From a candidate division WOR-1 bacterium RIFOXYB2_FULL_36_35 (lineage in GTDB: Bacteria; Margulisbacteria; WOR-1; XYC2-FULL-46-14; XYC2-FULL-37-10): 55,732 nt of DNA. The DNA lies in assembly GCA_001771505.1 (NCBI GenBank), contig MEUA01000026.1, positions 1 through 55,732 of the forward strand, written 5' to 3'. The translations under genes and the position numbers were made by a program. The notes below the pieces were generated by a model. The model ran no database searches, had not been told where the DNA came from, and was given only the letters and a program-made list of their open reading frames with translations. The first letter of the stretch is position 1. The number at the start of each line of letters is the position of its first letter. Positions 8,570 to 33,527 of this stretch are shown here, in pieces.

Positions 8570-8968
8570 ATGGGAAAAAGAACCACCGGCAGACGGCTTG
8601 CGATGCAAGCTTTATATGAAGCTGATTTTGGTTTGGCAAAAGTTTTAGAAATTATAGAGAGGCTTTCTAAAGAAGAGAATATGATAGAAGAGAGTTTGTC
8701 TTTTGCTAAACATCTTGCTTGCGGCGCTTTTGATAAAAAAGACGAGATAGATTCTATTATAAAAAAACACTCCAAAGATTGGCCGATTGAAAGAATGAGC
8801 GGAGTTGACAGGAATATACTTAGAGTGGCTTTATATGAATTGATTTTTACGAAAACTCCTCCTCAAGTTGTAATAAATGAGGCGCTTGAACTTGCCAAGA
8901 AATATTCTTCTTTTGAAGCTGCCAAATTTATTAACGGGATTTTAGGCGGGTATATTAAGGCTTGCTGA
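8570..8968 (+). CDS. nusB: Transcription antitermination factor NusB
   Basis: A 132-residue all-helical NusB with the typical N-terminus (TTGRRLAMQALYEAD), a central RMSGVDRNILRVALYEL segment and a C-terminal INGILGGY. NusB binds boxA RNA with NusE (S10) to keep RNA polymerase transcribing the rRNA operons. It follows accC almost without a gap and ends before a repeat-filled intergenic region, so it is likely the last gene of a prfB-accC-nusB group. Confidence 0.92.
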   Translation: MGKRTTGRRLAMQALYEADFGLAKVLEIIERLSKEENMIEESLSFAKHLACGAFDKKDEIDSIIKKHSKDWPIERMSGVDRNILRVALYELIFTKTPPQVVINEALELAKKYSSFEAAKFINGILGGYIKAC

Positions 8969-19995: not shown

Positions 19996-20175
19996 CCCTT
20001 TTTTGGAGGAGAGCCTGTTCATGCTCTTAGACATACCTTTGCCAGCAGATTAGTTCAAAAGGGAGTAAATATTTATAATGTAAGTAAGCTACTCGGACAT
20101 GTTTCAGTACAAACCACTCAAATCTACGCACATCTTGGACAAGATAACCTTCTAAATGCAGTAAATAAACTATAA
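19996..20175 (+). pseudogene. C-terminal remnant of a tyrosine recombinase/integrase
   Basis: About 59 codons without a start. They read HALRHTFASRLVQKGVNIYN, then a KLLGH segment and QTTQIYAHL, which are the second catalytic His/Arg box (HxLRH), the LGH box and the nucleophile Tyr of tyrosine recombinases. The N-terminal and central domains are absent. The fragment begins directly after the stop of the Lrp-type gene and ends 10 bases before the left repeat of the tRNA-associated island. This is the usual position of an integrase next to its attachment site. Confidence 0.85.
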
Positions 20176-20184
20176 AAATATCTT

Positions 20185-20396
20185 TTCTCACGGAACCGCC
20201 ACGGAACCGAACCCCTAAAACCTATATTTCCTAATTCTTAACCTTCATTCTTATCCTTAAATTTTACGAAGTACTATAGGTTAGAAGGCTTGAAAATAAG
20301 GAGAAGGAGAAGGAGAAGGATTGAGGGTAAATTTTACTTCGTAAAATTTACTAGCGGGGGTAGGATTTGAACCTACGACCTCAAGGTTATGAGCCT
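20185..20396. repeat. Left copy of the island-flanking direct repeat (att-like), with truncated tRNA
   Basis: About 212 bp closely similar to 33219-33419, with an 11-bp difference in a GGAGAA tandem stretch. It contains GGAACC motifs, AAATTTTACGAAGTA with its inverse, a GTAAATTTTAC-TTC-GTAAAATTTAC hairpin and the 3' half of the Met tRNA. Identity with the right copy stops at the anticodon-side sequence GAGCCT. Confidence 0.8.
20352..20396 (-). pseudogene. 3' half of initiator-type tRNA-Met
   Basis: 45 bases identical to the T-arm, variable and anticodon region of the intact tRNA at 33375-33449. The sequence diverges abruptly after the anticodon loop, so no acceptor or D-arm 5' strand is present. 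Such half-tRNAs mark an integration boundary. Confidence 0.8.
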
Positions 20397-20511
20397 GATA
20401 GCCCACTCACCTTACATTAACCTTCTTAACTACAAATTATCTTGTAACAGTCATAAAAACAAAGCTATAGCAACAAAAAGTGGAGATGCTACGGATAAAA
20501 AAGTGGTTTCT

Positions 20512-20547
20512 AAACTTTACGCATTTGTCCAGAAAAGCGTAAAGTTT
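20512..20547. terminator. Inverted repeat AAACTTTACGC...GCGTAAAGTTT
   Basis: An 11-bp perfect stem with a 14-base loop, followed by TTATGATTTTT. It lies 3 bases before the 35-bp direct repeat. It could be a terminator or a recombination-related structure. Confidence 0.45.
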
Positions 20548-20550
20548 TTA

Positions 20551-20585
20551 TGATTTTTACTCATCTCACGGAACCGTGACGGAAC
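20551..20585. repeat. Left 35-bp direct repeat bounding the RiPP locus
   Basis: The sequence TGATTTTTACTCATCTC followed by ACGGAACCGTGACGGAAC recurs at 30067-30101 with a single change. It shares the GGAACC...GGAACC core with the edges of the larger island repeat. Confidence 0.8.
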
Positions 20586-20800
20586 CAAAATTCATAGCAT
20601 CCTATATCTTGCACTTCTTCCCAATCCAATGCGTTCAATCCTTTTTAATTTGAGCAGTACTTCGAGCGTTTGCTTTACCGTTGGTCTTGCTACCTTAGTA
20701 TTTTTTGCGACATTGCCCTAATTGGATGTTTTAACTATGTCCAATTATATCCAATTATAAATAGCTTGACATTATTTAATAATTTATGGTTTTTATTTTA

Positions 20801-20829
20801 TTGACAAATAAAAAACATTATAATACCAT
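20801..20829 (+). promoter_or_regulatory. Candidate promoter of precursor gene 1
   Basis: TTGACA at 20801-20806 with TACCAT at 20824-20829 gives 17-base spacing. A better -10 (TATAAT at 20819-20824) is present but only 12 bases away. A second TTGACA lies at 20766. The region is very AT-rich and precedes a good ribosome site. Confidence 0.4.
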
Positions 20830-20862
20830 ACATGTAAACTGAAATTAAAAAAGGAGAGAACT

Positions 20863-21030
20863 ATGAAAAAGATATGGAAAAAACCTGTTTTGACAATGTT
20901 CATAAGGGAGAATGCAGAAGAAAATGTTTTGGCTACTTGTAAGTGGGAGGCCGCTGGCCCTGATTCTGATAATGGGACTTGTCGTATATCTGGTTGCGGC
21001 GGGACTTGTTCAGATTTAAGCGCGAGTTAA
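20863..21030 (+). CDS. RiPP precursor peptide 1 (55 aa)
   Basis: A short peptide with ribosome site AAGGAGAG six bases or so upstream. The leader has K3, W5, K7-P8, L10, R15, E19-E20, V22-L23 and T25-C26-K27, all shared with the precursors at 26142 and 27777. The following core is Gly/Ser/Ala/Asp-rich, with Cys at 40, 45 and 49, and ends S-A-S. The last Cys is six residues from the C-terminal Ser. It has its own candidate promoter and is followed by a terminator, so it may be made in excess over the enzymes encoded downstream. The assignment as a precursor rests on the three-way similarity and the neighbouring radical SAM, PqqD and exporter genes. Confidence 0.85.
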   Translation: MKKIWKKPVLTMFIRENAEENVLATCKWEAAGPDSDNGTCRISGCGGTCSDLSAS

Positions 21031-21043
21031 TGCGGATGTTTTT

Positions 21044-21086
21044 AAGGCTTTAGGATTTTCCATGTTTTAGAGCCTTTTTGTTTTTT
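21044..21086 (+). terminator. Intrinsic terminator after precursor 1
   Basis: The stem AAGGCT/AGCCTT, extended by TTA/TA pairing, is followed by TTTTGTTTTTT. It lies 14 bases after the precursor stop and before the exporter gene, so it probably limits read-through. Confidence 0.6.
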
Positions 21087-21276
21087 ATGTATTTATATGT
21101 TGCTGATTTGTTCTACGATTTTTCCGTTTTATCAAACAAGCTCTTTAGGAGCTAGCTTTTGACATTTGATTTTCTTTGCCACTGAGTTGTGTACTATTGC
21201 CACCAGTCTCTGTAATATGTATTTATCATGATAAAGATAATTTATGTTATACTTCTTAAAAAAAGGATTTAACCGG

Positions 21277-22986
21277 ATGCAAAACTGGCTTTTCTACTTA
21301 AAACAGGGCCTTTCCCATAAAAAAACAAAAGATCAAATTTCTAGTAAGGTTTCAAAGCCAAAAATTGAGATTTTATTCCCTTTTTTTCTTAAGCATTGGA
21401 CAAAAGCTGTTTTAGGTGTGATATTGGTTTTTCTGAGTTCATTTGCTCTTTATGGAATCCCTCTTGTTCAACGGTTTTTAATTGATACTGTAATTTTAGA
21501 AAAGAAGCTTAATTTGCTTTTATGGGTAGTGCTGCTTTTTGTTTTTCTTCAGTTGTTTAGTAAATTGACTGAAATGCTCCAGCAGTTTCATTTAAAACGT
21601 TTTGGGCAGAGTGTGATGTTTGACATTCAAACGGATTTGCTAAACAGGGTTTTTCATTTTCCAAAAGCCTTTTTTGATGATAAAGAGACCGGTTATTTGA
21701 TGTCCAGGCTTAACAATGATGCAAATGAACTGCAGTGGTTTTTTTCCGGCACAATAATTTATATAATAACAAATATTATTCGTTTTTGTGTGGGCGTAGC
21801 ATTGCTTTTTTATCTTGAATGGCGATTGGCTTTGGGGGTCTTGCTTGTTTTGCCTCTTTTTGGTTTTTGTATCTATTATTTTTCAAGTAAAGTTAAAGTT
21901 TTAAGCCATCATGGAATGGAGCAGGGGGCCAATGTTTTAAAACGGATGCAGGAAGCTCTTTCCTCTGTCTCGCTGCTAAAAGCTTTTGTTTCTGAAAAAC
22001 AGGAAGTAAATCGAATAACAAAAGAGATAACAGAAAACTATAAAATTTCTTTGCAGCAGAGCGCTGTACAGTCTTTTGCTCAATTAATAATTGGGTCTTT
22101 GGGTGATATTTCTAAACTTATAATCCTTGTTGCCGGAATCCCTCTTGTTGTTCAGGGCAATTGGACGGCTGGATCTTTGTTTGCTTTTTTTACTTATTTA
22201 ACTTATGTATACAATCCTGTCCAGTTCTTAGCAAATACAAATTTTATTATGCAAAGCTCTTTGGCTGCGCTGGAAAGAGTCTCTGCTTTTTATGATATTC
22301 TGCCCGAAGAACATGGAAAAGGAATTACTGCTGAAAAATTAAAAGGAGAAATAATTTTTCGCGATGTCTCTTTTTCTTATAATGGGGAAGATTTGATATT
22401 GCAAAATATTTCTTTTACTATTTTTCCTCATGAGCATGTTGCTATTATTGGCCCAAGCGGAGTTGGGAAGACAACTCTTATCAGCTTATTGCTTGATTTT
22501 TATAGGCCTACAAACGGAGAGATATTTTTTGACGGCGTGCCTGCTCAAAGTTATTCAGTTGATTCATTGCGCCGTCACATTGGTTATGTATCTCAAAATA
22601 CGCGTCTTATTTCGGGGACAATAATGGATAACATGCTTTATGGTAATCCTGGGGTGCTAAAGGAAGATGTTGAAAAAGCGGCACAAATTGCCGATATCCA
22701 TAATTTTATAACAACTCTTCCTAAAGGATATTTTACATTGTTGGGTGAAAATGGAGTCAACTTGTCCGAAGGGCAGAGGCAGCGACTTTCGATTGCGCGT
22801 GCTTTAATAAAAGATCCTGATATTTTAATCTTGGATGAACCGACATCTTCTTTGGATGAAGAAACGGAAAAGTCGATTTTTGATATACTCCCAAAAGCGA
22901 TACGAAATAAAACCATGATTTTTGTGACTCATAGAAAATCGACAATAAAAGCGGCGGACAGGATTATAAAATTAGATGTTAACTGA
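21277..22986 (+). CDS. ABC exporter (membrane plus ATPase half-transporter)
   Basis: A 569-residue half-transporter. Six membrane helices lie in about residues 40-310, followed by an ATPase domain with Walker A (GPSGVGKTT), signature (LSEGQRQRLSIARAL) and Walker B (ILILDEPTSSLDEE). It resembles MsbA/peptide exporters, but the roughly 150-residue N-terminal C39 peptidase of many RiPP exporters is absent, so another enzyme must remove the leader. I chose the ATG at 21277 because AAAAGGA lies 9 bases before it; an ATG at 21244 overlaps a TGTTATACT extended -10-like sequence. It overlaps the nucleotidyltransferase gene by 11 bases. Likely role: export of the modified peptide. Confidence 0.88.
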   Translation: MQNWLFYLKQGLSHKKTKDQISSKVSKPKIEILFPFFLKHWTKAVLGVILVFLSSFALYGIPLVQRFLIDTVILEKKLNLLLWVVLLFVFLQLFSKLTEMLQQFHLKRFGQSVMFDIQTDLLNRVFHFPKAFFDDKETGYLMSRLNNDANELQWFFSGTIIYIITNIIRFCVGVALLFYLEWRLALGVLLVLPLFGFCIYYFSSKVKVLSHHGMEQGANVLKRMQEALSSVSLLKAFVSEKQEVNRITKEITENYKISLQQSAVQSFAQLIIGSLGDISKLIILVAGIPLVVQGNWTAGSLFAFFTYLTYVYNPVQFLANTNFIMQSSLAALERVSAFYDILPEEHGKGITAEKLKGEIIFRDVSFSYNGEDLILQNISFTIFPHEHVAIIGPSGVGKTTLISLLLDFYRPTNGEIFFDGVPAQSYSVDSLRRHIGYVSQNTRLISGTIMDNMLYGNPGVLKEDVEKAAQIADIHNFITTLPKGYFTLLGENGVNLSEGQRQRLSIARALIKDPDILILDEPTSSLDEETEKSIFDILPKAIRNKTMIFVTHRKSTIKAADRIIKLDVN

Positions 22987-24154
22987 TTTAGAAAAAATTA
23001 AAAATCTTCATAAAGAGCTAAAACTATCCGGCATGCCCAAAAATGCTTTATTAAACGCGCCTGATGGATTATTGGACTATTTTATTCAGGTTATGAGAGA
23101 TGAAAAAGAAGTTGTTCTCCCTATATATTCCTATGATGATTGGCAAAGTTTTATTAAGCTTTTAGCGCTTCATGGAGTATTGCCGCTATTTTATTGGCAT
23201 ATAAAGTTACTTCCAAAAAAATTACATCCTCCGGAAAAGATTTTTTCTTATTTAAAGAATGTTTTTTTGTTGAGTTCTGCCCGGTCGCTTAAAACAGATT
23301 CTCAGCTTGCGCTTATTTTAGAGGCTTTTGAAAAAGAAAAGATTGAATATCTGGTTTTGAAAGGGAAAGCTTACGAAAAAATGATTTATCCCAATTCCGC
23401 CATTCGTCCAAGCAACGATATTGATATATTGATTCTTCCGAATCAGGTAAAAAGGGGGGAAGAAATTTTATTGGCATTGAAATATGAATGTAAAAATCAT
23501 ATTTTTGATAATCTTAAAGAGGTTTTTATTGAAGAAGTGTTTATCGATAAAAATAATAAAAAGGCTGTTATCGATTTACACTGGTCTTTACATGGTTTTT
23601 TGGGGATGAATAATCCTGATAATGATATGAAGGCTATTTTTGATAGAAAAATAGAAGTAAAGGGGCAACTCTTAAGCTTTAAAACTCTTGATTTGATAGA
23701 TTCATTAATACATGCTGCAATTCATGCGAGGATGATTCATGGCGAGGAGATGAGGCTGATCTGGCTTTATGATATTAGTTTGCTCCTCCAAGAAATTATT
23801 GCGGAGAACAGAATAGATGAGCTTAAAGATAAAAGTGTTGCTTTTGGCGCGAGATTGGCGGTTGAATCTGCTGTGAAAATTTCACAATTATGGTCCGGTT
23901 TTAAAATTCCTATAGGGCTTTTTGGCTTTGATGAGTGGCCCAAGCCTACAAAACAGGAGATAAATGTTTGGGAAAATTTTAATCTAAGGAGCCGGTCAAT
24001 TATTAGTTGGTATAATTCCAGATGGCCTAAAAATTTAAATTGGCGTAGGCAATTAAGATTGTTTTTTAATGTTTTGTTTAGTTATAAACGTAAGAATTTG
24101 TCAAAATTTTTTAGGAAAGAGATAATATGGGATGATAGAAAGCTAAAAATGTAA
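22976..24154 (+). CDS. Nucleotidyltransferase-like protein (PF14907 type)
   Basis: A 392-residue protein with the PF14907 pattern: VLKGKAYEKMIYPNSAIRPSNDIDILI (acidic pair D-I-D in the nucleotidyltransferase site), then VIDLHWSLHG and a helical C-terminal half. Members occur in lasso peptide clusters; in the pseudomycoidin cluster such a protein was reported to add a sugar to the phosphorylated C-terminal Ser. Here it overlaps the exporter and is followed one base later by the radical SAM/kinase fusion, so it should belong to the same modification pathway. Its donor substrate is unknown. Confidence 0.8.
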   Translation: MLTDLEKIKNLHKELKLSGMPKNALLNAPDGLLDYFIQVMRDEKEVVLPIYSYDDWQSFIKLLALHGVLPLFYWHIKLLPKKLHPPEKIFSYLKNVFLLSSARSLKTDSQLALILEAFEKEKIEYLVLKGKAYEKMIYPNSAIRPSNDIDILILPNQVKRGEEILLALKYECKNHIFDNLKEVFIEEVFIDKNNKKAVIDLHWSLHGFLGMNNPDNDMKAIFDRKIEVKGQLLSFKTLDLIDSLIHAAIHARMIHGEEMRLIWLYDISLLLQEIIAENRIDELKDKSVAFGARLAVESAVKISQLWSGFKIPIGLFGFDEWPKPTKQEINVWENFNLRSRSIISWYNSRWPKNLNWRRQLRLFFNVLFSYKRKNLSKFFRKEIIWDDRKLKM

Positions 24155-24155
24155 A

Positions 24156-26108
24156 ATGTCAAAAGAATATTTTTTAAAAACAAAAAATAAAATACCCCGT
24201 TTACCGCTTGAAGCGTCTATCGATTTGACCTACCGATGCAATAACAATTGCAGGCACTGTTGGCTATGCATTCCTCCCGGAGCAGAAGAGAAAAAACAAG
24301 AGCTTTCTTTTGCTGAGATAAAAAATATTGTTGCTCAAGCAAAAAATCTAGGAACCAGGCGCTGGTCTATTTCGGGTGGTGAGCCGATGCTTCGGCCTGA
24401 TTTTTCTGAAATTTTTGACTATATTACGAGCCATTCAATTTCTTATTCATTAAATACCAACGGAACTTTTATTACTCCTGCGATTGCAAAACTGATGAGG
24501 AAAAAAGGGATAAAAATGATAGCTCTTTACGGGGCAGATGCCAAAGTTCATGATCATGTGACCAGAAACGCGGGTTCTTTTGAGGCCGCAATGCGCGGCT
24601 TTGCTTATTTAAAAGAAGCGGGAGTGGGGTTTATCGTACAGCTTATTCCCATGAAAGATAATTATCATCAGTTTGATAAAATGGTTGAGTTGGCAAAGAC
24701 TCTAAGCAAACATTACAGGATAGGGGCTCCATGGTTGTATTTATCATCATGTGGGGATTCCAAAATTAACAAAGAAATTCAAAGACAGCGGCTTTCACCT
24801 AAAGAAATAATAGAACTTGATAAACCGAATTTATCTTATGAAGAACATATGGAAAAAGAATCGTATTGCGGCCGGCATGAGATAGGGGACAAGGGCCTTT
24901 TTGCCTCGTGTATTGCTAATCGGATGAATTTTCATGTTGATCCGTATGGAAAAATGGCTTTTTGCTCTTTTATTAAAGATCCGGATTTGAGGTATGATTT
25001 AAGGAGTGGTAGCGTGGAGGAGGGATGGGAAACTTTTATCCCTTCTTTGGCGTCTAAGGTTGAGGGAACGCAGGAGTATTTTAATGGTTGCGGATCGTGC
25101 GAGGATCGTAAAAGCTGCAGGTGGTGTCCGGTTTATGGTTATCTGGAACACGGGGATTTTTCAAGAAAAGTAGAATATCTTTGTGCGGTTGCAAAGGAAA
25201 ACAAAAAATATAAAGAGAATTGGAAGAAGCAGCACCGGACATTTTATCAGATTGGCGGAATTACCATTCAAATTGATTCTGATCTGGAGATAAAAGGGGA
25301 TACTTTTCATAAAAAACTTGATCCGTTTAAAGTATCCGAGCCGGGAGAGGATACGATTTATCTTGAGCATCATTTTGCTTTGCCGGAAATTAAAAAAGAA
25401 GCGCTGGGAAAGAGATTTTATTTTAAAGCCCCCTGGTCTATTTATAAAAAAGGAGATTCCTGGATTTATTTGGGCATTTCTCCTGCTACAGGTGAAAAAA
25501 ATTTACATAAAGTTGCGGTTTTCAACAAAGACCACTCCCGTGCCAGAATTTATCATAAAGATGATAGGGCTTTTTGCAAAGGAGAGATTTCCTCTCTTAC
25601 TCTTTTCCCTACGGATCAGATTTTAATTGCCAGGCTTTTGGCTGATCGAGAGGGATGCTTTATGCATGCCTGTGGAATTGTTTTAGACGGCAAAGGGCTT
25701 TTATTTGTCGGTCATTCCGAAGCCGGCAAATCTACTACCAGCTTAATGATGAAGAAATATGGAGGACAAATCCTTTGCGATGACCGGATAATCATTCGCA
25801 AGCATTCTGATGGTTTCAAAATTTATGGGACATGGAGCCACGGGGATGTGCCGGATATTTCAGCAAGTTCCGCCCCTCTTAATGCTATTTTTCTTTTAGA
25901 GCAGAGCAAAAAAAATGAAATTACACTTTTAACGGATAAAAATGCAATTTTTAAAAAATTTGTAACTTGCCTAATTAAACCTTTTGAAACTGCCGATTGG
26001 TGGGAGAAGGAATTAACCTTGTTAGAGCAAATTGCTAAAAAAATTCCATGTTATAGAATGTTGTTTGATAAAAGCGGTAAAATTGTAGAACAAATTAAAA
26101 ATATATAG
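24156..26108 (+). CDS. Radical SAM/SPASM enzyme fused to an HPr-kinase-like domain
   Basis: A 650-residue two-domain enzyme. Residues about 18-240 are a radical SAM domain with C28, C32 and C35 (CNNNCRHC) and a SAM-binding SGGEP. A SPASM cluster domain follows (about 245-345: CIANRM...CSF...CGSCEDRKSCRWC...LC). Residues about 365-650 resemble HPr kinase-like proteins, with P-loop GHSEAGKST at 519-527 and CDDRIIIRK after it. Radical SAM/SPASM enzymes crosslink or modify RiPP cores. HPr-kinase-like proteins in the paeninodin lasso cluster phosphorylate the C-terminal Ser of the precursor. All three precursors here end in Ser, so the fusion could do both steps. I know of no named example of this fusion, but have not searched. 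Confidence 0.85.
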   Translation: MSKEYFLKTKNKIPRLPLEASIDLTYRCNNNCRHCWLCIPPGAEEKKQELSFAEIKNIVAQAKNLGTRRWSISGGEPMLRPDFSEIFDYITSHSISYSLNTNGTFITPAIAKLMRKKGIKMIALYGADAKVHDHVTRNAGSFEAAMRGFAYLKEAGVGFIVQLIPMKDNYHQFDKMVELAKTLSKHYRIGAPWLYLSSCGDSKINKEIQRQRLSPKEIIELDKPNLSYEEHMEKESYCGRHEIGDKGLFASCIANRMNFHVDPYGKMAFCSFIKDPDLRYDLRSGSVEEGWETFIPSLASKVEGTQEYFNGCGSCEDRKSCRWCPVYGYLEHGDFSRKVEYLCAVAKENKKYKENWKKQHRTFYQIGGITIQIDSDLEIKGDTFHKKLDPFKVSEPGEDTIYLEHHFALPEIKKEALGKRFYFKAPWSIYKKGDSWIYLGISPATGEKNLHKVAVFNKDHSRARIYHKDDRAFCKGEISSLTLFPTDQILIARLLADREGCFMHACGIVLDGKGLLFVGHSEAGKSTTSLMMKKYGGQILCDDRIIIRKHSDGFKIYGTWSHGDVPDISASSAPLNAIFLLEQSKKNEITLLTDKNAIFKKFVTCLIKPFETADWWEKELTLLEQIAKKIPCYRMLFDKSGKIVEQIKNI

Positions 26109-26141
26109 TATTATTTCTTTATTATTTTATAGGAGGCATTT

Positions 26142-26312
26142 ATGAAAAAGAAATGGGAAAAACCAATGTTGAATATTTTAGTAAGAGGTAAACCTGAGGA
26201 GAGTGTTTTGACAACGTGCAAGAGTGCAACCGCGTCAGGGCAGAGTGGGGCGTCTTATAACAACTGCGGCACACTTGGATGTGACGACTGTACGGTTGGC
26301 TCCTCGTCGTAG
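26142..26312 (+). CDS. RiPP precursor peptide 2 (56 aa)
   Basis: The start has AGGAGG five bases upstream. The leader matches precursor 1 and is closer to precursor 3 (W5, KP, L10, VRGKPEE, VLTTCK). The core is Ser/Gly/Ala/Asn-rich with Cys at 42, 47 and 50 and ends in three Ser, the last Cys again six residues before the end. It follows the radical SAM/kinase gene by 33 bases. A hairpin (26381-26423) and a decayed copy of itself lie downstream. Confidence 0.85.
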   Translation: MKKKWEKPMLNILVRGKPEESVLTTCKSATASGQSGASYNNCGTLGCDDCTVGSSS

Positions 26313-26380
26313 GGGATTCAGCCTGCAGTGAGAGGTCAGGAAGTTAATAAAAATAGAGCGGCATAATTCTATTCGTCTAT

Positions 26381-26423
26381 GCAGAAAACCACGGTAGTAA
26401 AGCTGTCGAGGTTTTGCTTTTGC
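26381..26423 (+). terminator. Hairpin with T-rich tail between precursor 2 and the decayed copy
   Basis: GCAGAAAACC pairs with GGTTTTGC and is followed by TTTTGC. It may attenuate transcription into the second radical SAM gene. Confidence 0.45.
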
Positions 26424-26446
26424 AAGCGCGGAAATGGAGGGTATGT

Positions 26447-26557
26447 ATGAAGAAAAAAGGGGAAAAACATATGTTGAATGTTTTGACAATATGTTTTTTG
26501 TCTTGTGCCTGTCTGCAAGGCGGACTGCGCTTATGGTTAAGGACTTGTTTTAGATGA
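26447..26557 (+). pseudogene. Decayed RiPP precursor copy
   Basis: A 36-codon frame starts MKKKGEKHMLNVLT, with GGAGGG just upstream. Compared with precursor 2 it has lost the invariant Trp (W to G) and Pro (P to H). A 30-base segment encoding the ILVRGKPEES part of the leader has been deleted cleanly, from GAAT to GTTTTGACAA. The core is scrambled but still has several Cys. It ends in ATGA overlapping the start of the next radical SAM gene, so its translation may still be used for coupling. Confidence 0.7.
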
Positions 26558-27732
26558 ACCGAACATCTTACGTTTCCACACAGCTTATCAATAATTCCGA
26601 TTTATTCAAAAATACAAAACCAATTCTATTAAAACTGGACATTGAGCTTACCGAACGCTGCAATAATAATTGTATCCATTGTTGCATTAACCTTCCTGAA
26701 AATGATCAAATTGCAAAGCAAAAAGAGTTGTCTACTGACGAATGGAAAAAGATAATTCAGGAAGCCGCCGGTTTGGGCGCAATCAGGATTCGTTTCACAG
26801 GCGGAGAACCTTTGCTGCGTGAAGATTTTAAAGAACTTTATCTTTTTACACGAAAACTTGGGATTAAAGTCATGCTTTTTACCAATGCCCGTTTAATTAC
26901 CCCGGAATTGGCCGATTTTTTGGCGCTTTATCCTCCTCTTGAAAAAATTGAAGTTACAGTCTATGGGATGCACAAAGAATCTTATGAGGCAGTTTCTAGA
27001 GCCAAGGGCTCTTTTGAAGAATTTTGGCGCGGAGTCAATCTTTTATTTGATAAGAAAATTCCTTTTATTGTTAAGTCCGCTTTTCTTCCTCAAAATAAAC
27101 AGGATATGGAAGAATTTGAATCTTGGGCTGCGACAATTCCATGGATGGATAGACCCCCTTCTTATTCCATGTTTTTTAATTTAAGAGACAGGAGGGAAGA
27201 AAAAAAGAATATAGCAATTAAAAAAACAAGAATTTCCCCTTCTGAAGGATTGAAAATGCTTACCAGGAATAAAGAGCGATATATTAAAGAGATGAAAGAT
27301 TTTTGCTCCAAATTTATGGGGCCTCCGGGAAATAAATTGTTTTCCTGTGGCGCGGGTCATGGTGGGGGCTGCGTGGATGCTTATGGCAAACTACAGCTTT
27401 GCCTTTCTTTAAGGCATCCAGACACGGTTTATGACCTTAAAAAAGGGACATTGAAAGACGCGATTGATAATTTTTTTCCAAAGGTTCAAGGGATTATGGC
27501 GAAAAACTCTGAATATTTAAAACGTTGCGCGAAATGTTTTTTAAAAGGTCTTTGTGACCAGTGTCCATCTAAATCCTGGATGGAATATGGGACATTAGAT
27601 ACCCCTGTGGAATATATCTGTGATGTTGCTCATGCGCAGGCGGAATATTTGGGTTTGCTTAATAAAGGAGAAAAGGCTTGGACCCTGGTGGAGTGGAGAG
27701 AGAGGATAAATAAATTTGTTGAAAATATTTAG
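26554..27732 (+). CDS. Radical SAM/SPASM peptide-modifying enzyme (second)
   Basis: A 392-residue protein with C36, C40 and C43 (CNNNCIHC), FTGGEPLLRED for SAM binding, and a C-terminal SPASM-like domain: CGAGHGGGC, QLCLSLRHPDTVYD, then CAKCFLKGLCDQC and a final YICDVAHA. This matches PqqE/MoaA/SkfB-type RiPP enzymes that form thioether, C-C or other bonds to core residues. The SPASM Cys set would hold two extra iron-sulfur clusters. It overlaps the decayed precursor by four bases and precedes precursor 3. It is closely similar in layout to the enzyme at 28797, suggesting a duplication with split tasks. Confidence 0.88.
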   Translation: MNRTSYVSTQLINNSDLFKNTKPILLKLDIELTERCNNNCIHCCINLPENDQIAKQKELSTDEWKKIIQEAAGLGAIRIRFTGGEPLLREDFKELYLFTRKLGIKVMLFTNARLITPELADFLALYPPLEKIEVTVYGMHKESYEAVSRAKGSFEEFWRGVNLLFDKKIPFIVKSAFLPQNKQDMEEFESWAATIPWMDRPPSYSMFFNLRDRREEKKNIAIKKTRISPSEGLKMLTRNKERYIKEMKDFCSKFMGPPGNKLFSCGAGHGGGCVDAYGKLQLCLSLRHPDTVYDLKKGTLKDAIDNFFPKVQGIMAKNSEYLKRCAKCFLKGLCDQCPSKSWMEYGTLDTPVEYICDVAHAQAEYLGLLNKGEKAWTLVEWRERINKFVENI

Positions 27733-27776
27733 AAAAATGATATTATTTCAGGCGGAATACATATTAGGAGGTTGTG

Positions 27777-27959
27777 ATGAATAAGAAATGGATGAAACCT
27801 ATATTGCAAGTTTTAATACGAGGGAAAGCAGAGGAGGCGGTTTTGATTACTTGTAAAAATGGAGGAGTTGCTCCTGCTGGCCCAAATAATAGCGATACTC
27901 AGTGCCATTCGAACGAATCTGGATGTGGGGTTACTTGCGATGTAAATGCTGCTTCATAG
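27777..27959 (+). CDS. RiPP precursor peptide 3 (60 aa)
   Basis: The ATG has AGGAGG five bases upstream; a GTG at 27774 is in frame but too close to that site. The leader is W5, KP, L10, LIRGKAEE, VLITCK. The core is longer, rich in Gly, Asn, Pro and Ser, with Cys at 43, 50 and 54, and ends A-A-S. The last Cys is six residues from the C-terminal Ser, as in the other two. It lies between the second radical SAM enzyme and the PqqD-like gene. Confidence 0.85.
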   Translation: MNKKWMKPILQVLIRGKAEEAVLITCKNGGVAPAGPNNSDTQCHSNESGCGVTCDVNAAS

Positions 27960-28011
27960 TTTTTGTTTGGTATTAAGATGCTTTTTTGATTAAACGAAAG
28001 GATATGATTAT

Positions 28012-28311
28012 ATGGCTTTAAATTTGGATTCTATCTATATGCCGTCGGAGAAAATAGTTGCGAGAGAGATTGAAGGAGAACTTATTATTGTTCCTTTAAT
28101 GTCTGGCGTTGGAGATATGGAGGACGAGCTGTTTACGCTAAATGATACAGGAAAAGAGATATGGAAAAGGCTTGATGGAAATAGGAGCCTTAAGGCTATA
28201 GTAGATGAATTAATAGCAGAGTTTGATGCATTAAGGGAAGAAATCGAAAAAGATGTTCTTGGTTTAGCTTCTGAACTTGTAAAACGAGGAATGCTTGTAG
28301 AGAGCCACTAA
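28012..28311 (+). CDS. PqqD-like peptide-binding protein
   Basis: A 99-residue PqqD-family protein: a winged-helix fold with LFTLNDTGKEIWKRLDG in the middle and a C-terminal helix ending VKRGMLV. PqqD proteins are RiPP recognition elements that bind the leader of the precursor and hand it to a radical SAM enzyme. Here it probably binds the KxWxKPxL leader motif shared by the three precursors. GAAAGGA is present before the ATG. It precedes the peptidase-like gene by four bases. Confidence 0.9.
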   Translation: MALNLDSIYMPSEKIVAREIEGELIIVPLMSGVGDMEDELFTLNDTGKEIWKRLDGNRSLKAIVDELIAEFDALREEIEKDVLGLASELVKRGMLVESH

Positions 28312-28315
28312 AAAA

Positions 28316-28804
28316 GTGCCTGACACAAAAAAAACAAGAGAAATTTCTCTTTATAGCCTTCAGCTAATAGAACTAATGCGTGCGGTGCATGAAAAAGGCA
28401 ATCTTTTTCGTTTCAAAGCAAAAGGCATTAGCATGACTCCTTTCATTAGGGATGGAGATATTCTTACAATATCCCCTTTAAAACAAAAACTTCAAATTGG
28501 TGATGTGGTTCCTTTTATCAAACCGGGATTTATTAAGCTAATTGTTCATAGAATAGTTAGAAAGAGAAGGAATAATTATTTATTAAAAGGAGATAATTCC
28601 TGGAACTTTGATGGTACAATCCATGCTGAAAATTTGCTTGGGATTGTTTCAAAGATAGAAAGAGGCAAAAGGAAGATAGGAATTGGATTTGGGATTGATA
28701 AGTTTTTTATAGCTTTTTTAAGCCGGTTTAAAGTTTTAAATGTTTTACTTTTTTTAATTAGATTTTTTTTATCTGTTTTTAGAAAAAATAATAACAATGG
28801 ATAA
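28316..28804 (+). CDS. S24/S26-type signal-peptidase-like protein
   Basis: A 162-residue protein with the S26 serine motif GISMTPFIRDGD and the later lysine motif LLKGDN of the Ser/Lys dyad, plus a C-terminal hydrophobic helix (about 130-155). Proteins of this type occur in several RiPP-like clusters. Because the exporter lacks a C39 peptidase domain, this is the best candidate for removing the leader, but it could also act on something else. The start is a GTG. The end overlaps the third radical SAM gene by eight bases. Confidence 0.75.
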   Translation: MPDTKKTREISLYSLQLIELMRAVHEKGNLFRFKAKGISMTPFIRDGDILTISPLKQKLQIGDVVPFIKPGFIKLIVHRIVRKRRNNYLLKGDNSWNFDGTIHAENLLGIVSKIERGKRKIGIGFGIDKFFIAFLSRFKVLNVLLFLIRFFLSVFRKNNNNG

Positions 28805-29912
28805 GAAATTTTCATCATCTGCCCCTTTATCTGAGTTTGTTTTGTGGGACAAAATGAAAAAAAACTCAAAAAATCAGGTTATATCTTTTACTTTAGAAGT
28901 TACCGCCCGCTGCAATAATGATTGTTCCCATTGTTATATAAATCTATACGCGAATGACAAGGATGCTCAAAAAAAAGAACTTTCCCTTGAGCAGATATCG
29001 GATATCGCGAATCAGGCAATAGAATTAGGAGCGCTTTGGTGTTTGATTACCGGGGGAGAGCCGCTACTTCGCCCTGATTTTTTTGATATCTACATGATGC
29101 TTAAGAAAAAAGGGCTTTTGGTCTCTGTTTTTACTAACGCCGGTCTTATTACCCAAAAACATGCCGACTTTTTTAAAAAATATCCTCCTCGTGATATTGA
29201 AGTTACGGTCTATGGAGTTACAAAAGAAACATATGAAAGAATAAGCCGCAAGCCTGGCTCTTTTGATGCTTTTATGCGAGGCTTGGAGATACTATTAAAG
29301 ACTGGAGTCAGGATACGTTTTAAAACTATGGCAATTAAATCCAATCTCCATGAGCTTGAGATGATATCTCAATTTTGCAGGGAGAGGACAAAAGATTATT
29401 TCCGTTTTGACCCGCAGCTTCATCTCCGTTTTGACCGTGATGAAAAACGAAACCAATTGATAAAATCGGAACGGCTTACCCCTGAAGAAATTGTTGCTGT
29501 CGAGCAGGCTGATAATAAGCGTTTTTCTTCTCTAAAAGAAAATTGTGATAAATTTATTAATCCTGAATTTGAGAAGCATGTCTGCGACCATCTTTTTCAT
29601 TGTGGGGCGGGAAATGGAAGTTTTAATGTCAGTTATGACGGTTTTTTCAGGCTTTGTTCGTCCCTTTGGCATCCCGATACAATTTATGACCTCAAAAAAG
29701 GGAGATTAGAAGAAGCATGGGGGGAGTTTATAAAAAAGGTTAGGGATATGCGGTCTAATCGCAAAGAATTTTTAGAAAAATGCCGCAAATGTTCTATAAT
29801 TAATCTTTGTTTGTGGTGTCCTGCGCATGCTTATTTAGAGGTTGGTGAGATGGACGCGGTAATTGAATATTTCTGCAAAGTAGCTCATGCGAGGGCAAAA
29901 GCTTTGGTTTGA
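28797..29912 (+). CDS. Radical SAM/SPASM peptide-modifying enzyme (third)
   Basis: A 371-residue protein with C39, C43 and C46 (CNNDCSHC), ITGGEPLLRPD, and a C-terminal SPASM domain (HCGAGNGSF, RLCSSLWHPDTIYDL, CRKCSIINLCLWC and YFCKVAHA). The layout is shared with the enzyme at 26554, including the sequence around the SPASM cysteines. It most likely acts on another site of the same precursors or on a different one of the three. It is the last gene of the locus; 150 bases later comes the right 35-bp direct repeat. Confidence 0.88.
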   Translation: MDKKFSSSAPLSEFVLWDKMKKNSKNQVISFTLEVTARCNNDCSHCYINLYANDKDAQKKELSLEQISDIANQAIELGALWCLITGGEPLLRPDFFDIYMMLKKKGLLVSVFTNAGLITQKHADFFKKYPPRDIEVTVYGVTKETYERISRKPGSFDAFMRGLEILLKTGVRIRFKTMAIKSNLHELEMISQFCRERTKDYFRFDPQLHLRFDRDEKRNQLIKSERLTPEEIVAVEQADNKRFSSLKENCDKFINPEFEKHVCDHLFHCGAGNGSFNVSYDGFFRLCSSLWHPDTIYDLKKGRLEEAWGEFIKKVRDMRSNRKEFLEKCRKCSIINLCLWCPAHAYLEVGEMDAVIEYFCKVAHARAKALV

Positions 29913-30174
29913 TTTTATATGGTTTGGTTTCATTTGCCAGTTTTACAAAAATAGAATTTGTGCTTTTCATCTTCGAATGTGGATATTTTTTTTTGTAATC
30001 TTGATATTCTGGAGAGTTGGCAGAGGCAACTGCTATTGGCACACACCAGGAATAATCTTTGTCTAATGATTTTTCCTCATCTCACGGAACCGTGACGGAA
30101 CGGGAAGTTATAGTAGCTACTACTCCCTTTTCTTTGGGGCGGGAACGTAAAAACGAAAGAAGGGGAAAACCACA
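29913..30174. other. Right edge of the RiPP cassette, no convincing gene
   Basis: On the minus strand a frame from about 30060 to 29920 reads with coding-like composition (PIAVASANSPEYQDYKKKYP) but has no start in place and no recognisable family. It may be the remnant of a gene. The right 35-bp repeat interrupts it. Confidence 0.35.
30067..30101. repeat. Right 35-bp direct repeat bounding the RiPP locus
   Basis: Identical to 20551-20585 at 34 of 35 positions (A to C at position 9). The sequences outside the repeat on each side do not match. The two copies enclose 9.5 kb that contains exactly the precursor, modification and export genes. Confidence 0.8.
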
Positions 30175-30534
30175 TCAACCAAATAAAGGATTTTTAAATT
30201 CTTTTTCTTTTGTATGAAACCCCACAATTTTGTATATTTCCTCAAATTCTTCCTCGACCCAGCCCTTTGGCCTAAGTTTTTTGTACTCTGCTAATAAGAA
30301 ACTCTTTGCCTGTCCCTTTCTATGGTATTCAGCAATTGCAACGTCAATTATTCTGTTTTTTATATCTTCTTTTCGTTTTTGTAAGGAATCATTATATTGA
30401 GATATTGTTAATTGTAATGTGTCCTTACTTGCCATATCAGCACTTTTATATGCTTTATAAGAGATAAAAGCTCCTATGATAGAAACTAGAAAGGTAGAAG
30501 CCCATTGCCAATTATTTAATAAAAAATAACGCAT
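30175..30534 (-). CDS. Small membrane-anchored hypothetical protein
   Basis: A 119-residue protein with one N-terminal membrane helix (about residues 8-30, WQWASTFLVSIIGAFISYKAY) and a Lys/Glu-rich helical tail. There is no family I recognise. The next gene downstream of its 5' end is divergent. Short anchored proteins of this kind often occur in mobile elements. Confidence 0.5.
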   Translation of the reverse strand: MRYFLLNNWQWASTFLVSIIGAFISYKAYKSADMASKDTLQLTISQYNDSLQKRKEDIKNRIIDVAIAEYHRKGQAKSFLLAEYKKLRPKGWVEEEFEEIYKIVGFHTKEKEFKNPLFG

Positions 30535-30798
30535 ATTTTATATGTATTATATCATGGCACACCGCCCCGCTTTGACAATGAAAACCCTCCTGAGAAGGAA
30601 TCAAGGGGGTTGATGGTCTCTTTAAACCTTTCCACAAGGGAAAACGATATTGTGCCGATTAAAAAAACATAGCTTAAGCTTTATAAAATAAAATCTTTAG
30701 TTATAAATGGTTGGGGTGCTTGTTGCGGTGTAAATAAAGTTTATCCCTTTAGACATTTGGGCTATACTTGTATAAAGGGCTAATTTGAGGAGGCAATC

Positions 30799-31593
30799 AT
30801 GAAAAGAAGAAATGTTGTGGGGAAGGTTATCAATTTTAGAGGATTAATCTACGCTCCAGTTGAGGAGAATGGTGTTATTTTTCTTTTTTCTAAAATAACA
30901 AACGATTTAAATATGAATATTGAAACCATAAGAAAAGGATTCCCTGATTGTATTGCGAAAAAATATGTAGGCAATGGACAATGGGAAGAAGTTAATATTG
31001 AATTTGAATTTAAATCCTCAGATTTCCCTAAGCACAAGCATTTAGAAAGGATGCGGTTAGGGACAAAATGCGACAGCATTGTGTGTTGGGAGCATGATTG
31101 GCAAGAATGTCCAAAGGAAATCGAAATAATTGAACTAAAGACTGAGTATAAAAAATATCCCAATACAGTAGTTGAAGAACCTGATAAGGTCTCGCAGATA
31201 AGTGATTATAATCTTAATGATTTATTTAAAAATTACACTCTATCAAAGACTCTTTATAATGAATTACATGGGCTAACAATGAAAATTAGCGGAGAAATAT
31301 GGAGGAAGGTGGCAAAATATGCGGTCTTTTATTATTCGCCAGAAAAGGTGTTCTTTAATGTCTCAATTCAGAAGCAGGGTCTCAAAATTCATCTTTTTAC
31401 TGGGGGTAAAAATATTCGAGGAGTTGAAACTATCTCCGAAGAAGGTAATTATGCTCAAAAGTGGGGGAAATTGTATGTTAAAGCTCGAAGGGACTTACCT
31501 ATTGCGATGTCTGCGATCAGAAAATCTTTGCAATTAATTAAAAAAGCAATAAATAATCATGAGAATACTGGTTGGTATGCTGAAAATGATTAA
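30799..31593 (+). CDS. Predicted nuclease-like protein with DUF5655-like C-terminus
   Basis: A 264-residue protein. The first 120 residues contain EFEFKSSDF, CDSIVCWEHDWQECP and IEIIELK, a D...ExK arrangement as in PD-(D/E)XK nuclease-fold domains. The last about 110 residues (LYNELHGLTMKI... AKYAVFYYSPEKVFFNVS ...LKIHLF) resemble DUF5655, a domain often attached to restriction-like proteins. A role in defence against foreign DNA is plausible in an island but is an inference. GAGGAGGC is the ribosome binding site. Confidence 0.55.
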   Translation: MKRRNVVGKVINFRGLIYAPVEENGVIFLFSKITNDLNMNIETIRKGFPDCIAKKYVGNGQWEEVNIEFEFKSSDFPKHKHLERMRLGTKCDSIVCWEHDWQECPKEIEIIELKTEYKKYPNTVVEEPDKVSQISDYNLNDLFKNYTLSKTLYNELHGLTMKISGEIWRKVAKYAVFYYSPEKVFFNVSIQKQGLKIHLFTGGKNIRGVETISEEGNYAQKWGKLYVKARRDLPIAMSAIRKSLQLIKKAINNHENTGWYAEND

Positions 31594-31705
31594 CCTTTCT
31601 GATGTCGCTTTTTAAACGGCTCAAAAAGAACATTGAAATTAATATGGCAAGTCAAAACCAATAATCGAATAAATGGCGCAGGATAAAGGCAATGGAGGAT
31701 TAAAA

Positions 31706-31816
31706 ATGTCTGGAAAATTATTTAAATTATTAGATACAGGGACAACTTATGAAATAGATAAGATTCCGTATGAAAAAGATTATTTAAAACTTAGAGATGG
31801 ATTATCAAAAGATTAA
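31706..31816 (+). CDS. Small ORF preceding the DUF2130 fragment (36 aa)
   Basis: It starts MSGKLFKLLDTG, with GGAGG eight bases upstream, and overlaps the next frame by 20 bases. No family is recognised. It may be a genuine small protein or the start of a gene whose remainder was replaced. Confidence 0.3.
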   Translation: MSGKLFKLLDTGTTYEIDKIPYEKDYLKLRDGLSKD

Positions 31817-32303
31817 AGAAAATCAAAGAGAGGCTCGTGCTGAAATAGCTGTCATAGTTTCAGTCGTTCTACCTGATGGGATTAAAACTCATAAACAAAA
31901 AGATAATGTCTGGGTATCTAATTTTGAGTCGGTTGTTGGTCTCGCTATGGCACTAAGAATAAACCTCATGCAGGTTATGTCTGTTAAACTTGCCTCAGTA
32001 GGTAAAAATGAAAAGATGGAGATTATCTATAATTATTTAACTGGCACAGAATTTAAACAGAGAGTCGAAGCTATTGTTGAAGCATTTACAGGGATGAGAG
32101 AGGATTTGGATAAGGAGGAGCAGTATTTTACTAGAATGTGGGCTAAAAAAAGAAAGCAAATCAATAAGGTTATAGATAACACTTACGGTATGTATGGTGA
32201 ACTTGAAGCAATAGCCGGAAAGGCTTTACCACAGATTAAATTATTGGAATTAGCTACCGGGGAAGATGTTGCGGAAGTGGTTGATGGAGTAGCTGTCGCA
32301 TGA
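31797..32303 (+). pseudogene. C-terminal fragment of a DUF2130 protein
   Basis: 168 residues matching the C-terminal half of DUF2130 proteins (VWVSNFESVVGLAMALR, SVGKNEKMEIIYNYLTGTEF, VIDNTYGMYGELEAIAGKALPQI). Family members usually run to about 400 or more residues with a long N-terminal coiled coil, which is missing. The function of the family is unknown. The truncated form could still be translated from the ATG at 31797, but no ribosome site is evident. Confidence 0.65.
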
Positions 32304-32833
32304 AAATTCTTAAAACAACCCTAAGCTACCTTCTCTCATTTATATTTTTCCTAGGAGTTCTACCAGCATTCTTTGTCGAGATAGGATTTGGCCTTGATAG
32401 ATTATTTCGAATTCCACAAAGAAGTGCTTGTCCGTACTGCTTAATATTATCTTTTATATTGGTCGTCTTTGGTTTGTTTTGGATGGTCTGGTCAATGCTG
32501 GCGATTGTTTTTATAGGTCGAGGAAACCCTCAAGAACTTTTTGGAAAAGAGTTTTTGCCTTCTGCTAAAAAGCTCATAATCGTAGGCCCTTATCGATATA
32601 CAAGAAATCCGATGATCTTTGGATGGTTGCTTATTATGTTTGGGGTTGGTCTGTATTTAGGATCGATCTCTTTACTGCTCGTAGTTTTACCTGTTTTTAT
32701 CGTCAGCGTAATTTTTTATCTTTGTAAATTTGAAGAGCCTAAGTTGCTTAAAAAATTTGGGGATGATTATGTGAAATATAGCAAAAAGACGCCTGTTTTA
32801 CTGCCTCGCGTTTGTACGAAACAATTGTCTTGA
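32300..32833 (+). CDS. Isoprenylcysteine methyltransferase-family membrane protein
   Basis: A 177-residue membrane protein with four or so hydrophobic segments and the C-terminal signature GPYRYTRNPM...FEEPKLLKKFGDDYVKYSKKTPVLLPR, typical of the ICMT/PEMT methyltransferase family. Bacterial members methylate varied lipids or small molecules; the substrate is unknown. It overlaps the DUF2130 fragment by ATGA. Confidence 0.8.
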   Translation: MKILKTTLSYLLSFIFFLGVLPAFFVEIGFGLDRLFRIPQRSACPYCLILSFILVVFGLFWMVWSMLAIVFIGRGNPQELFGKEFLPSAKKLIIVGPYRYTRNPMIFGWLLIMFGVGLYLGSISLLLVVLPVFIVSVIFYLCKFEEPKLLKKFGDDYVKYSKKTPVLLPRVCTKQLS

Positions 32834-32868
32834 CATGTAAACATTAAAAAGGATAAAATTTATCTATT

Positions 32869-33198
32869 ATGGCGATAACAAAAAAAGATGTAGAGACACT
32901 AAAAGAGGTTTTTGCTACAAAAAAAGATATAGAAGCGTTGAAAGAAGTGTTTGTTACTAAGATAGAATTCAAAGGGCTTGAATCCAAAGTCGATGCCCTT
33001 GAATCCAAGTTCGATAAATTGGAACACAAAGTTGACGCTGGATTTGATAGGCTTCTTACCGGACAGGACAAACTTATGCATGAATTAGAAAAAGCTCGAG
33101 AAGATAGAATATTTGCATTTGCAAAAGATAAAGAGCAGGATTTAAGACTGGATAATATGGATGTTCGCATTAAAAAACTAGAAACGGTACAAGCATAA
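32869..33198 (+). CDS. Small coiled-coil hypothetical protein
   Basis: A 109-residue protein made almost entirely of heptads, with a near-repeat TKKDVETLKEVFATKKDIEALKEVFVTK at the N-terminus and LESKVDALESKFDKLEHKVD after it. There is no known function; such proteins are frequent next to mobile-element ends. The right island repeat begins 20 bases after its stop. Confidence 0.55.
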   Translation: MAITKKDVETLKEVFATKKDIEALKEVFVTKIEFKGLESKVDALESKFDKLEHKVDAGFDRLLTGQDKLMHELEKAREDRIFAFAKDKEQDLRLDNMDVRIKKLETVQA

Positions 33199-33218
33199 TA
33201 CGGCAAGCAGCATTCCCC

Positions 33219-33419
33219 TTCTCACTGAACCTCCACGGAACCAACCCCCTAAAACCTGTATTTCCTAATTCTTAACCTTCATTCTTATCCTTAAATTTTA
33301 CGAAGTACTATAGGTTAGAAGACTTGAAAATAGGGAGAGGAATTAGGGAGTAAATTTTACTTCGTAAAATTTACTAGCGGGGGTAGGATTTGAACCTACG
33401 ACCTCAAGGTTATGAGCCT
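33219..33419. repeat. Right copy of the island-flanking direct repeat
   Basis: About 201 bp matching 20185-20396, including the flank AATTCTTAACCTTCATTC and the hairpin GTAAATTTTAC-TTC-GTAAAATTTAC. It continues without a break into the intact tRNA gene. Confidence 0.8.
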
Positions 33420-33449
33420 TGCGAGCTAACCGGACTGCTCCACCCCGCG
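33375..33449 (-). tRNA. Initiator-type tRNA-Met (CAT)
   Basis: A complete cloverleaf: acceptor CGCGGGG with CCCCGCT and a mismatched 1-72 pair (C against U, where initiators avoid a Watson-Crick pair), D-stem GAGC/GCTC, anticodon loop CTCATAA, T-arm GTAGG-TTCAAAT-CCTAC, discriminator A. CCA is not encoded. The anticodon stem is CAAGG/CCTTG, so only two of the three usual G-C pairs of initiators are present. Its 3' half is the integration site of the island to the left. Confidence 0.9.
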
Positions 33450-33527
33450 ATGAAAGAATAAAAGCATTATAACATTCTTTGTAAATTAAAACAAAGGGTC
33501 TCGCCATGGAAAATCAAAAGACAGTTT

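Follow-up and report, generated by a model that had tools for sequence, protein, structure and literature searches.

The window analysed here is a 55.7-kb stretch of contig MEUA01000026.1 from the 1.95-Mb genome of a candidate division WOR-1 bacterium (RIFOXYB2_FULL_36_35). At 20863-29912 it carries a cluster of three precursor genes and seven further genes in a single orientation, which a first-pass annotation of the DNA had taken for a new type of locus encoding a ribosomally synthesized and post-translationally modified peptide (RiPP). Here, we report a comparative analysis of this cluster, with an emphasis on its precursor peptides, on a kinase-like domain fused to a radical S-adenosylmethionine (SAM) enzyme, and on the spread of related operons among bacteria and archaea. 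The cluster probably represents an undescribed RiPP family in which phospho-tailoring, of the type known from linear polyphosphorylated peptides (LPP) and from paeninodin, would be combined with crosslinking of a core with three to four Cys by SPASM-containing radical SAM enzymes.

Gene content of the cluster

The genes of the cluster, together with one decayed precursor copy, are as follows:

20863..21030, + strand: precursor A, 55 amino acids (aa), four Cys as CK...C..C..C, C-terminus -SAS, ribosome-binding site AAGGAGAG
21244..22986, + strand: MsbA-like ATP-binding cassette (ABC) exporter without a peptidase domain (PF00664 and PF00005; best NCBIfam match MsbA, E = 1.5e-114, under the model cut-off)
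22976..24154, + strand: PF14907 nucleotidyltransferase-like protein, kin of PsmN and LppN (E = 8.4e-41)
24156..26108, + strand: radical SAM/SPASM enzyme (residues 1 to ~350) fused to a HprK/PEPCK-fold kinase-like domain (~360-650), by Pfam, AlphaFold and Foldseek
26142..26312, + strand: precursor B, 56 aa, four Cys, C-terminus -SSS
26447..26557, + strand: fourth precursor copy, decayed (MKKKGEKHMLNVL...; 82% identity over 45 nt to the start of precursor B; W and P as well as the CK motif lost)
26554..27732, + strand: second radical SAM/SPASM enzyme (rSAM2; PF04055, E = 1.7e-23; CX3CX2C and C..C(4-7)C(2-3)C)
27774..27959, + strand: precursor C, 61 aa, four Cys, C-terminus -AAS
28012..28311, + strand: PqqD-type discrete RiPP recognition element (RRE; PF05402, E = 7.3e-17; weak matches to lasso PqqD families too)
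28316..28804, + strand: signal-peptidase-I-like protease (S24/S26), probable leader peptidase (PF00717; best NCBIfam match TIGR02228, archaeal-type signal peptidase I, E = 3.5e-12)
28797..29912, + strand: third radical SAM/SPASM enzyme (rSAM3; PF04055, E = 9.6e-24; SPASM, E = 0.0036)

Pfam and NCBIfam profiles thus placed all three radical SAM/SPASM genes, the PqqD and PF14907 genes, the S26-like peptidase and the ABC exporter where the first-pass annotation had put them. The HPr-kinase-like domain that it listed is also present, yet has no gene of its own and instead makes up the last 290 residues of the first of the three radical SAM proteins. The three precursors said to share one leader are intact and have 20 invariant columns over ~60 aa; to these, the decayed copy, which follows precursor B and lies ahead of rSAM2, has to be added. 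The protease retains Ser, His and Asp (S..H..D in 54 of 63 family members) and has a hydrophobic stretch at the C-terminus.

A precursor family with a conserved C-terminal Ser/Thr

The precursors in the window share the leader KxWxKPxLxxLxRxxxEExVLxxCK and are all preceded by a ribosome-binding site; the 97 nt spanning their starts are 69-72% identical. Among relatives from other genomes, the consensus is KxWxKPxLxVLxRxxxEExVLxx-CK-x(~15)-C-x(~7)-C-x(2-3)-C-x5-S, which includes an RRE-type motif, [Y/W]xxPxL, detected as W..P.[LIFVM] in 148 of 158 precursors. The residue next to the first Cys is Lys in 138 of 141 cores and Arg in the other 3, and position -3 from this Cys is Leu in 125 of 128. 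The cores comprise 28-38 residues with three to four conserved Cys at fixed spacing. No Pfam or NCBIfam family covers the precursors, and the curated lasso precursor families gave three weak matches among 44 members (paeninodin and rhodolasso families; best E = 0.003 and 0.0093).

The most conspicuous feature of the cores is their last residue, which is Ser or Thr in all 53 precursors of the first set. A circular artefact of the search was ruled out by a profile built on leaders alone, with which 52 of 54 precursors ended in Ser/Thr, the remaining two being frameshifted genes from one metagenome-assembled genome (MAG). In the enlarged set of 148 precursors, 143 end in Ser (129) or Thr (14), and the five exceptions look truncated, decayed or frameshifted. 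By comparison, Ser/Thr occupies 11.6% of other open reading frame (ORF) ends and 18.8% of positions within cores; it does not exceed 32% at any non-terminal position of the precursors, or 27% at any core position except the last, whether counted from CK or from the end. The C-terminal residue is therefore the sole conserved Ser/Thr.

Precursors can greatly outnumber the modification loci. In one Omnitrophota genome (G831), 16 precursor matches (L138, L139, L140 and L212-L218) are spread over at least nine contigs, against a single kinase locus, and two further genomes combine one kinase locus with seven (G082) or five (G431) precursors. The scattered cores retain the full signature, which suggests modification in trans. 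Several of the orphan precursors in G831 are flanked by housekeeping genes (FtsH, GT20, IMPDH, GT9), and examination of orphan neighbors for a functional hint yielded unrelated housekeeping genes only. In a single Omnitrophica MAG (L026), three precursors (4677-4875, 6218-6551 and 8702-8893) contain G-rich or poly-G stretches in the leader and two of them are frameshifted there, reflecting either phase variation or assembly error.

A kinase-like domain fused to a radical SAM enzyme

AlphaFold models of the fusion protein reached mean predicted confidence (pLDDT) of 90.5 and 93.0, the latter for the kinase half, which was modelled separately because a Foldseek search with the entire fusion returned matches to the radical SAM half only. 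With the kinase-half model, Foldseek retrieved PEP carboxykinase (PEPCK; E = 3e-7) and HPr kinase/phosphorylase (HprK/P; E = 3e-5), the two arms of one kinase fold. Solved HPr kinases also match the domain in sequence (E = 0.0016-0.02), with alignment of the MH, GxxxxGKS and DD(R) motifs. Residues H504, K525, D542 and D543 are invariant or almost so across 35 homologues, and the pattern H...GxxxxGK[ST]...DD was found by regular expression in 63 of 76 copies. These four residues correspond to the His-Lys-Asp-Asp motif that is required in paeninodin kinases (PMC9266682). The domain is accordingly modelled as a HprK/PEPCK fold bearing this motif and is predicted to be an active kinase.

The precursors offer a plausible target for such an activity. 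In paeninodin, it is the C-terminal Ser that HprK-type kinases phosphorylate and to which PsmN adds a hexose, and lasso precursors from clusters with an HprK-type kinase are reported to show just this signature (PMC9266682). The conservation described above agrees with the expectation for an HprK-type kinase that, as in paeninodin, targets the last residue, so that phosphorylation of the C-terminal Ser/Thr by the fused domain is strongly implied by the comparison.

Operon versions and phyletic distribution

Genome contigs were scanned with four fusion proteins, yielding 49 loci, the last few matches being unrelated radical SAM genes. The loci came from Omnitrophota, Saganbacteria/WOR-1, WOR-3, Acidobacteriota, Aminicenantes, KSB1, Poribacteria, Deltaproteobacteria (including an isolate, Desulfofustis glycolicus DSM 9705), Anaerolineaceae, Chlorobiaceae and Kiritimatiellae, as well as in Methanothrix and Methanolinea MAGs. 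Altogether, related clusters are patchily distributed over at least ten bacterial phyla and two methanogen lineages, where cases of a single MAG may reflect binning errors. The nearest loci, at 70-72% identity, come from Candidatus Saganbacteria and WOR-1 MAGs, and two genomes of the same order and class as the window genome (G072 and G056) have orthologous clusters.

Profile searches with 44 precursors (E = 1e-4) detected the family in 10 of 395 genomes in the phylum of D. glycolicus. In sets of genomes centred on Omnitrophota and Aminicenantes, 19 of 384 and 16 of 297 had matches, respectively, as did 1 of 197 in the Methanolinea set, 6 of 147 in the WOR-3 set and 2 of 151 in the Anaerolineaceae set. 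Within the phylum of the window genome, a search at E = 0.01 gave matches in 4 of 74 genomes. This patchy distribution suggests horizontal transfer.

We counted partner genes within 8 kb in 24 fusion loci with a precursor and at least 5.5 kb on either side (~20 distinct loci, some fetched sequences overlapping). The protease was present near all 24, PqqD near 23, rSAM3 near 22, rSAM2 near 21, the ABC exporter near 14 and PF14907 near 11. Leader, enzymes and gene order are common to many genomes, and almost every operon encodes one to three radical SAM/SPASM enzymes, with rSAM3 found in all operon versions. The search for gene set and leader that had been proposed along with the first-pass annotation thus recovered both in related and unrelated genomes; their association is not due to chance.

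Simpler operons also exist. In one form, a stand-alone kinase accompanies two radical SAM enzymes (L134-L137, L060, L055); in the other, compact form, which has one radical SAM enzyme and again a stand-alone kinase, the order is PqqD, third-type radical SAM enzyme, precursor, kinase, protease and PF14907 (L178-L180, L210, L211). The precursors of these compact operons have three Cys, and their rSAM3 proteins form a separate deep branch. Adjoining the G072 cluster, at L015 186-6367, radical SAM genes are again abundant and accompany a small Cys-rich ORF of another kind (KKWQTPELTGIIGTKTGSDC...); this stretch may belong to a further RiPP system, whose WxxPxL leader would be related.

Radical SAM enzymes and the number of Cys

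The CX3CX2C motif is retained in 54 of 58, 56 of 60 and 57 of 60 members of the three radical SAM families, and the SPASM motif in 57 of 58, 60 of 60 and 60 of 60, respectively. None of the three enzymes passed a curated NCBIfam maturase model, the best matches, of the AlbA/SkfB/StsB/PapB type, scoring 42-78 bits against cut-offs of 300-850; for the radical SAM half of the fused enzyme, Foldseek retrieved SkfB, SuiB, PqqE and EpeE. Because the conserved residue of the core is Cys, thioether rings are the likely product, with C-C bonds or epimerisation as other possible outcomes. The crosslinked product anticipated in the first-pass annotation fits the comparative evidence, although we infer the crosslinks, and their thioether chemistry, from sequence.

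The number of Cys varies with operon type. At least four Cys are present in 64 of the 69 intact precursors from fusion loci, whereas at stand-alone-kinase loci 11 of 13 have three (Fisher p = 2e-8); of the two exceptions, one is cut at a contig edge (L190) and the other lacks rSAM3 and looks broken (L194). Genome G415, which has stand-alone kinases only, agrees, with 3-Cys precursors. It is tempting to propose that each extra radical SAM enzyme introduces one extra ring, with 3-Cys cores in the absence of the fused enzyme and 4-Cys cores in its presence. We hold this idea tentatively, at somewhat less than even odds: about four changes of operon type suffice on the rSAM3 tree, so that the Fisher p-value is inflated by counting relatives repeatedly and a test on independent pairs is powerless, and three Cys are found in one-enzyme and two-enzyme operons alike. 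The link is hence a lead and not a result.

The cluster resides on a genomic island

The cluster is located on a ~13-kb island (window 20020-33450) delimited by the following features:

20020..20175, + strand: tyrosine recombinase reduced to a C-terminal remnant, marking the left edge (PF00589, E = 6e-13; profile positions 130-168 of 172)
20185..20396, no strand assigned: left direct repeat, att-like, containing the 3' half of tRNA-Met (212-column alignment to 33219-33419, 89% identity; last 70 bp identical)
33219..33419, no strand assigned: right direct repeat, overlapping the 3' end of an intact tRNA-Met (33374-33450, minus strand)

Synteny with two genomes of the same family breaks at ~20055, in the recombinase remnant; in the same-family genomes, an empty tRNA-Met site was not found, and the synteny break alone was seen. 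Inside the island, 31797-32303 holds what seems to be another gene remnant, which encodes the C-terminal part of a DUF2130 protein (profile positions 106-253 of 255).

Relationship to known peptide systems

The first-pass annotation emphasized lasso peptides as kin. Parts are indeed shared with lasso clusters, but among published systems the LPP family comes closest to the part of the cluster without radical SAM genes. LPP clusters encode a signal-peptidase-I (SpI)-like protease, an RRE, HprK, a nucleoside triphosphate (NTP) transferase and an MsbA-like exporter; the kinase has been shown to phosphorylate the peptide, and LppS, the SpI-like protease, cuts the leader with the aid of the RRE (Popov et al. 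2026, Nat Commun, PMC13381572). The cluster in the window contains the complete LPP core of five functions, with the kinase as a fused domain, and both families have a [Y/W]xxPx[L/V] leader motif and a patchy spread. The two families differ in several ways: the LPP leader, YxxPxVLxHQxIxFETxxS, is absent here; the LPP phosphosite is core Ser3, whereas no core Ser/Thr but the last is conserved here (counting from CK or from the end); LPPs are linear and made without a radical SAM enzyme (PMC13381572), in contrast to the up to three radical SAM/SPASM enzymes here, one of them fused to the kinase; and LPPs occur in Bacillota, as opposed to many phyla and archaea with a Cys-rich core and C-terminal Ser/Thr.

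With paeninodin and pseudomycoidin, the cluster shares an HprK-type kinase with a conserved C-terminal Ser target, a PF14907-type PsmN, a discrete RRE and a W-type WxxPxL leader. However, Pfam detected neither the asparagine-synthetase-like macrolactam cyclase nor the B2 transglutaminase-like cysteine protease among the cluster genes, which have radical SAM enzymes instead, and a plain lasso cluster was rejected on these grounds. Sactipeptides and ranthipeptides (SkfB, AlbA, PapB, ruminococcin C) are similar in their SPASM radical SAM maturases and Cys-containing cores, and differ from the present system with its discrete RRE and its CK...C..C..C core that ends in Ser/Thr; we know of no sactipeptide or ranthipeptide with an HprK domain or PF14907. 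The proposed hybrid pathway, with crosslinking by SPASM enzymes and C-terminal decoration of the lasso type, is thus supported by the comparison, namely, by C-terminal Ser/Thr in 143 of 148 precursors, the kinase motif and the RRE motif of the leader.

A survey with RRE-Finder noted ~300 lasso-model RREs that co-occur with radical SAM enzymes and took them for off-class hits; its text gives no kinase, precursor family or gene set for these RREs (PMC7470986). Within the literature searched, from which subscription papers and preprints were mostly absent, we found no radical SAM enzyme, HprK and PqqD in one RiPP system and, as had been supposed in the first-pass annotation, no named class with this gene set.

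Proposed pathway and alternative explanations

The motif and the gene content suggest recognition of the WxxPxL leader by the PqqD-type RRE, which would present the precursor. The radical SAM/SPASM enzymes would then modify the Cys-rich core (CK-x(~15)-C-x(~7)-C-x(2-3)-C-x5-S), with thioether crosslinks as the most likely outcome, and the HprK-like domain would phosphorylate the invariant C-terminal Ser/Thr. Where present, the PF14907 protein may add a glycosyl or nucleotidyl group, such as the hexose added by PsmN, onto the phosphate. Finally, the signal-peptidase-like protease is likely to remove the leader, plausibly just before Cys1 by analogy with LppS, and the MsbA-like pump would export the peptide. 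We see roughly even chances for the more ambitious formulation, that this is a new RiPP class, common to numerous anaerobic and candidate-phylum bacteria and to certain archaea, in which a bifunctional radical SAM-kinase couples thioether rings to C-terminal phosphorylation, with glycosylation in some cases, and in which one enzyme set serves many scattered precursors.

Several observations weigh against this scheme and bear on its alternatives, among them the detection of the PF14907 gene near just 11 of 24 loci. The conserved Cys could form disulfides, common in exported Cys peptides, or bind metal, while the radical SAM enzymes epimerise, hydroxylate, decarboxylate or form C-C bonds, with C-terminal phosphorylation unchanged. 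The failure of all three enzymes to reach a maturase cut-off and the divergent chemistries of SkfB, SuiB, PqqE and EpeE leave room for this explanation, which we nevertheless consider rather unlikely, given that three to four conserved Cys at fixed spacing in cores of 28-38 residues suggest Cys as the target and that the extra radical SAM enzyme roughly matches an extra Cys.

The kinase assignment meets its own difficulties. Hpr_kinase_C matches the window protein at E = 1.7e-4 over 51 residues, under the Pfam cut-off, and just 3 of 35 homologues match; Thr is not accepted by LppK at its own site (PMC13381572), and ~10% of the C-termini here are Thr; and LPP and Bsf kinases act near the N-terminus of the core, so that the HprK type alone does not fix the site. 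With its marginal Pfam match and with 13 of 76 copies failing the strict motif pattern, the domain could be one that phosphorylates no peptide and only assists the radical SAM domain, either in an ATP-dependent manner or by binding the peptide. This seems improbable to us: the His-Lys-Asp-Asp residues are near-invariant, stand-alone kinase versions adjoin the same precursors, and the conservation of the C-terminal Ser/Thr would be left unexplained. Least credible, and in our estimate very improbable, is the coincidental juxtaposition of a lasso or LPP cluster with unrelated radical SAM genes. The leader motif and five genes in common with LPP (PMC13381572), along with the weak precursor matches to the paeninodin and rhodolasso families, would be accommodated by such a juxtaposition, but in genomes from different phyla the radical SAM genes stay in synteny with the precursor (their presence in relatives was checked and found), one of them is fused to the kinase, the window cluster lacks a lasso cyclase and B2 protease, and neither the leader nor the core motif of LPPs occurs in the precursors.

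Implications

The precursor signature, a WxxPxL leader followed by CK and a C-terminal Ser/Thr, makes the family searchable, and its hosts include lineages with almost no characterised natural products, such as Omnitrophota, Margulisbacteria, Aminicenantes, WOR-3 and methanogens. Because at least one cultured host exists, D. glycolicus DSM 9705, the prediction is directly testable. If the predicted activities hold, two logics of RiPP tailoring that were earlier seen apart, radical SAM crosslinking and C-terminal phosphorylation of the HprK type, would be united in one operon and even in one polypeptide.

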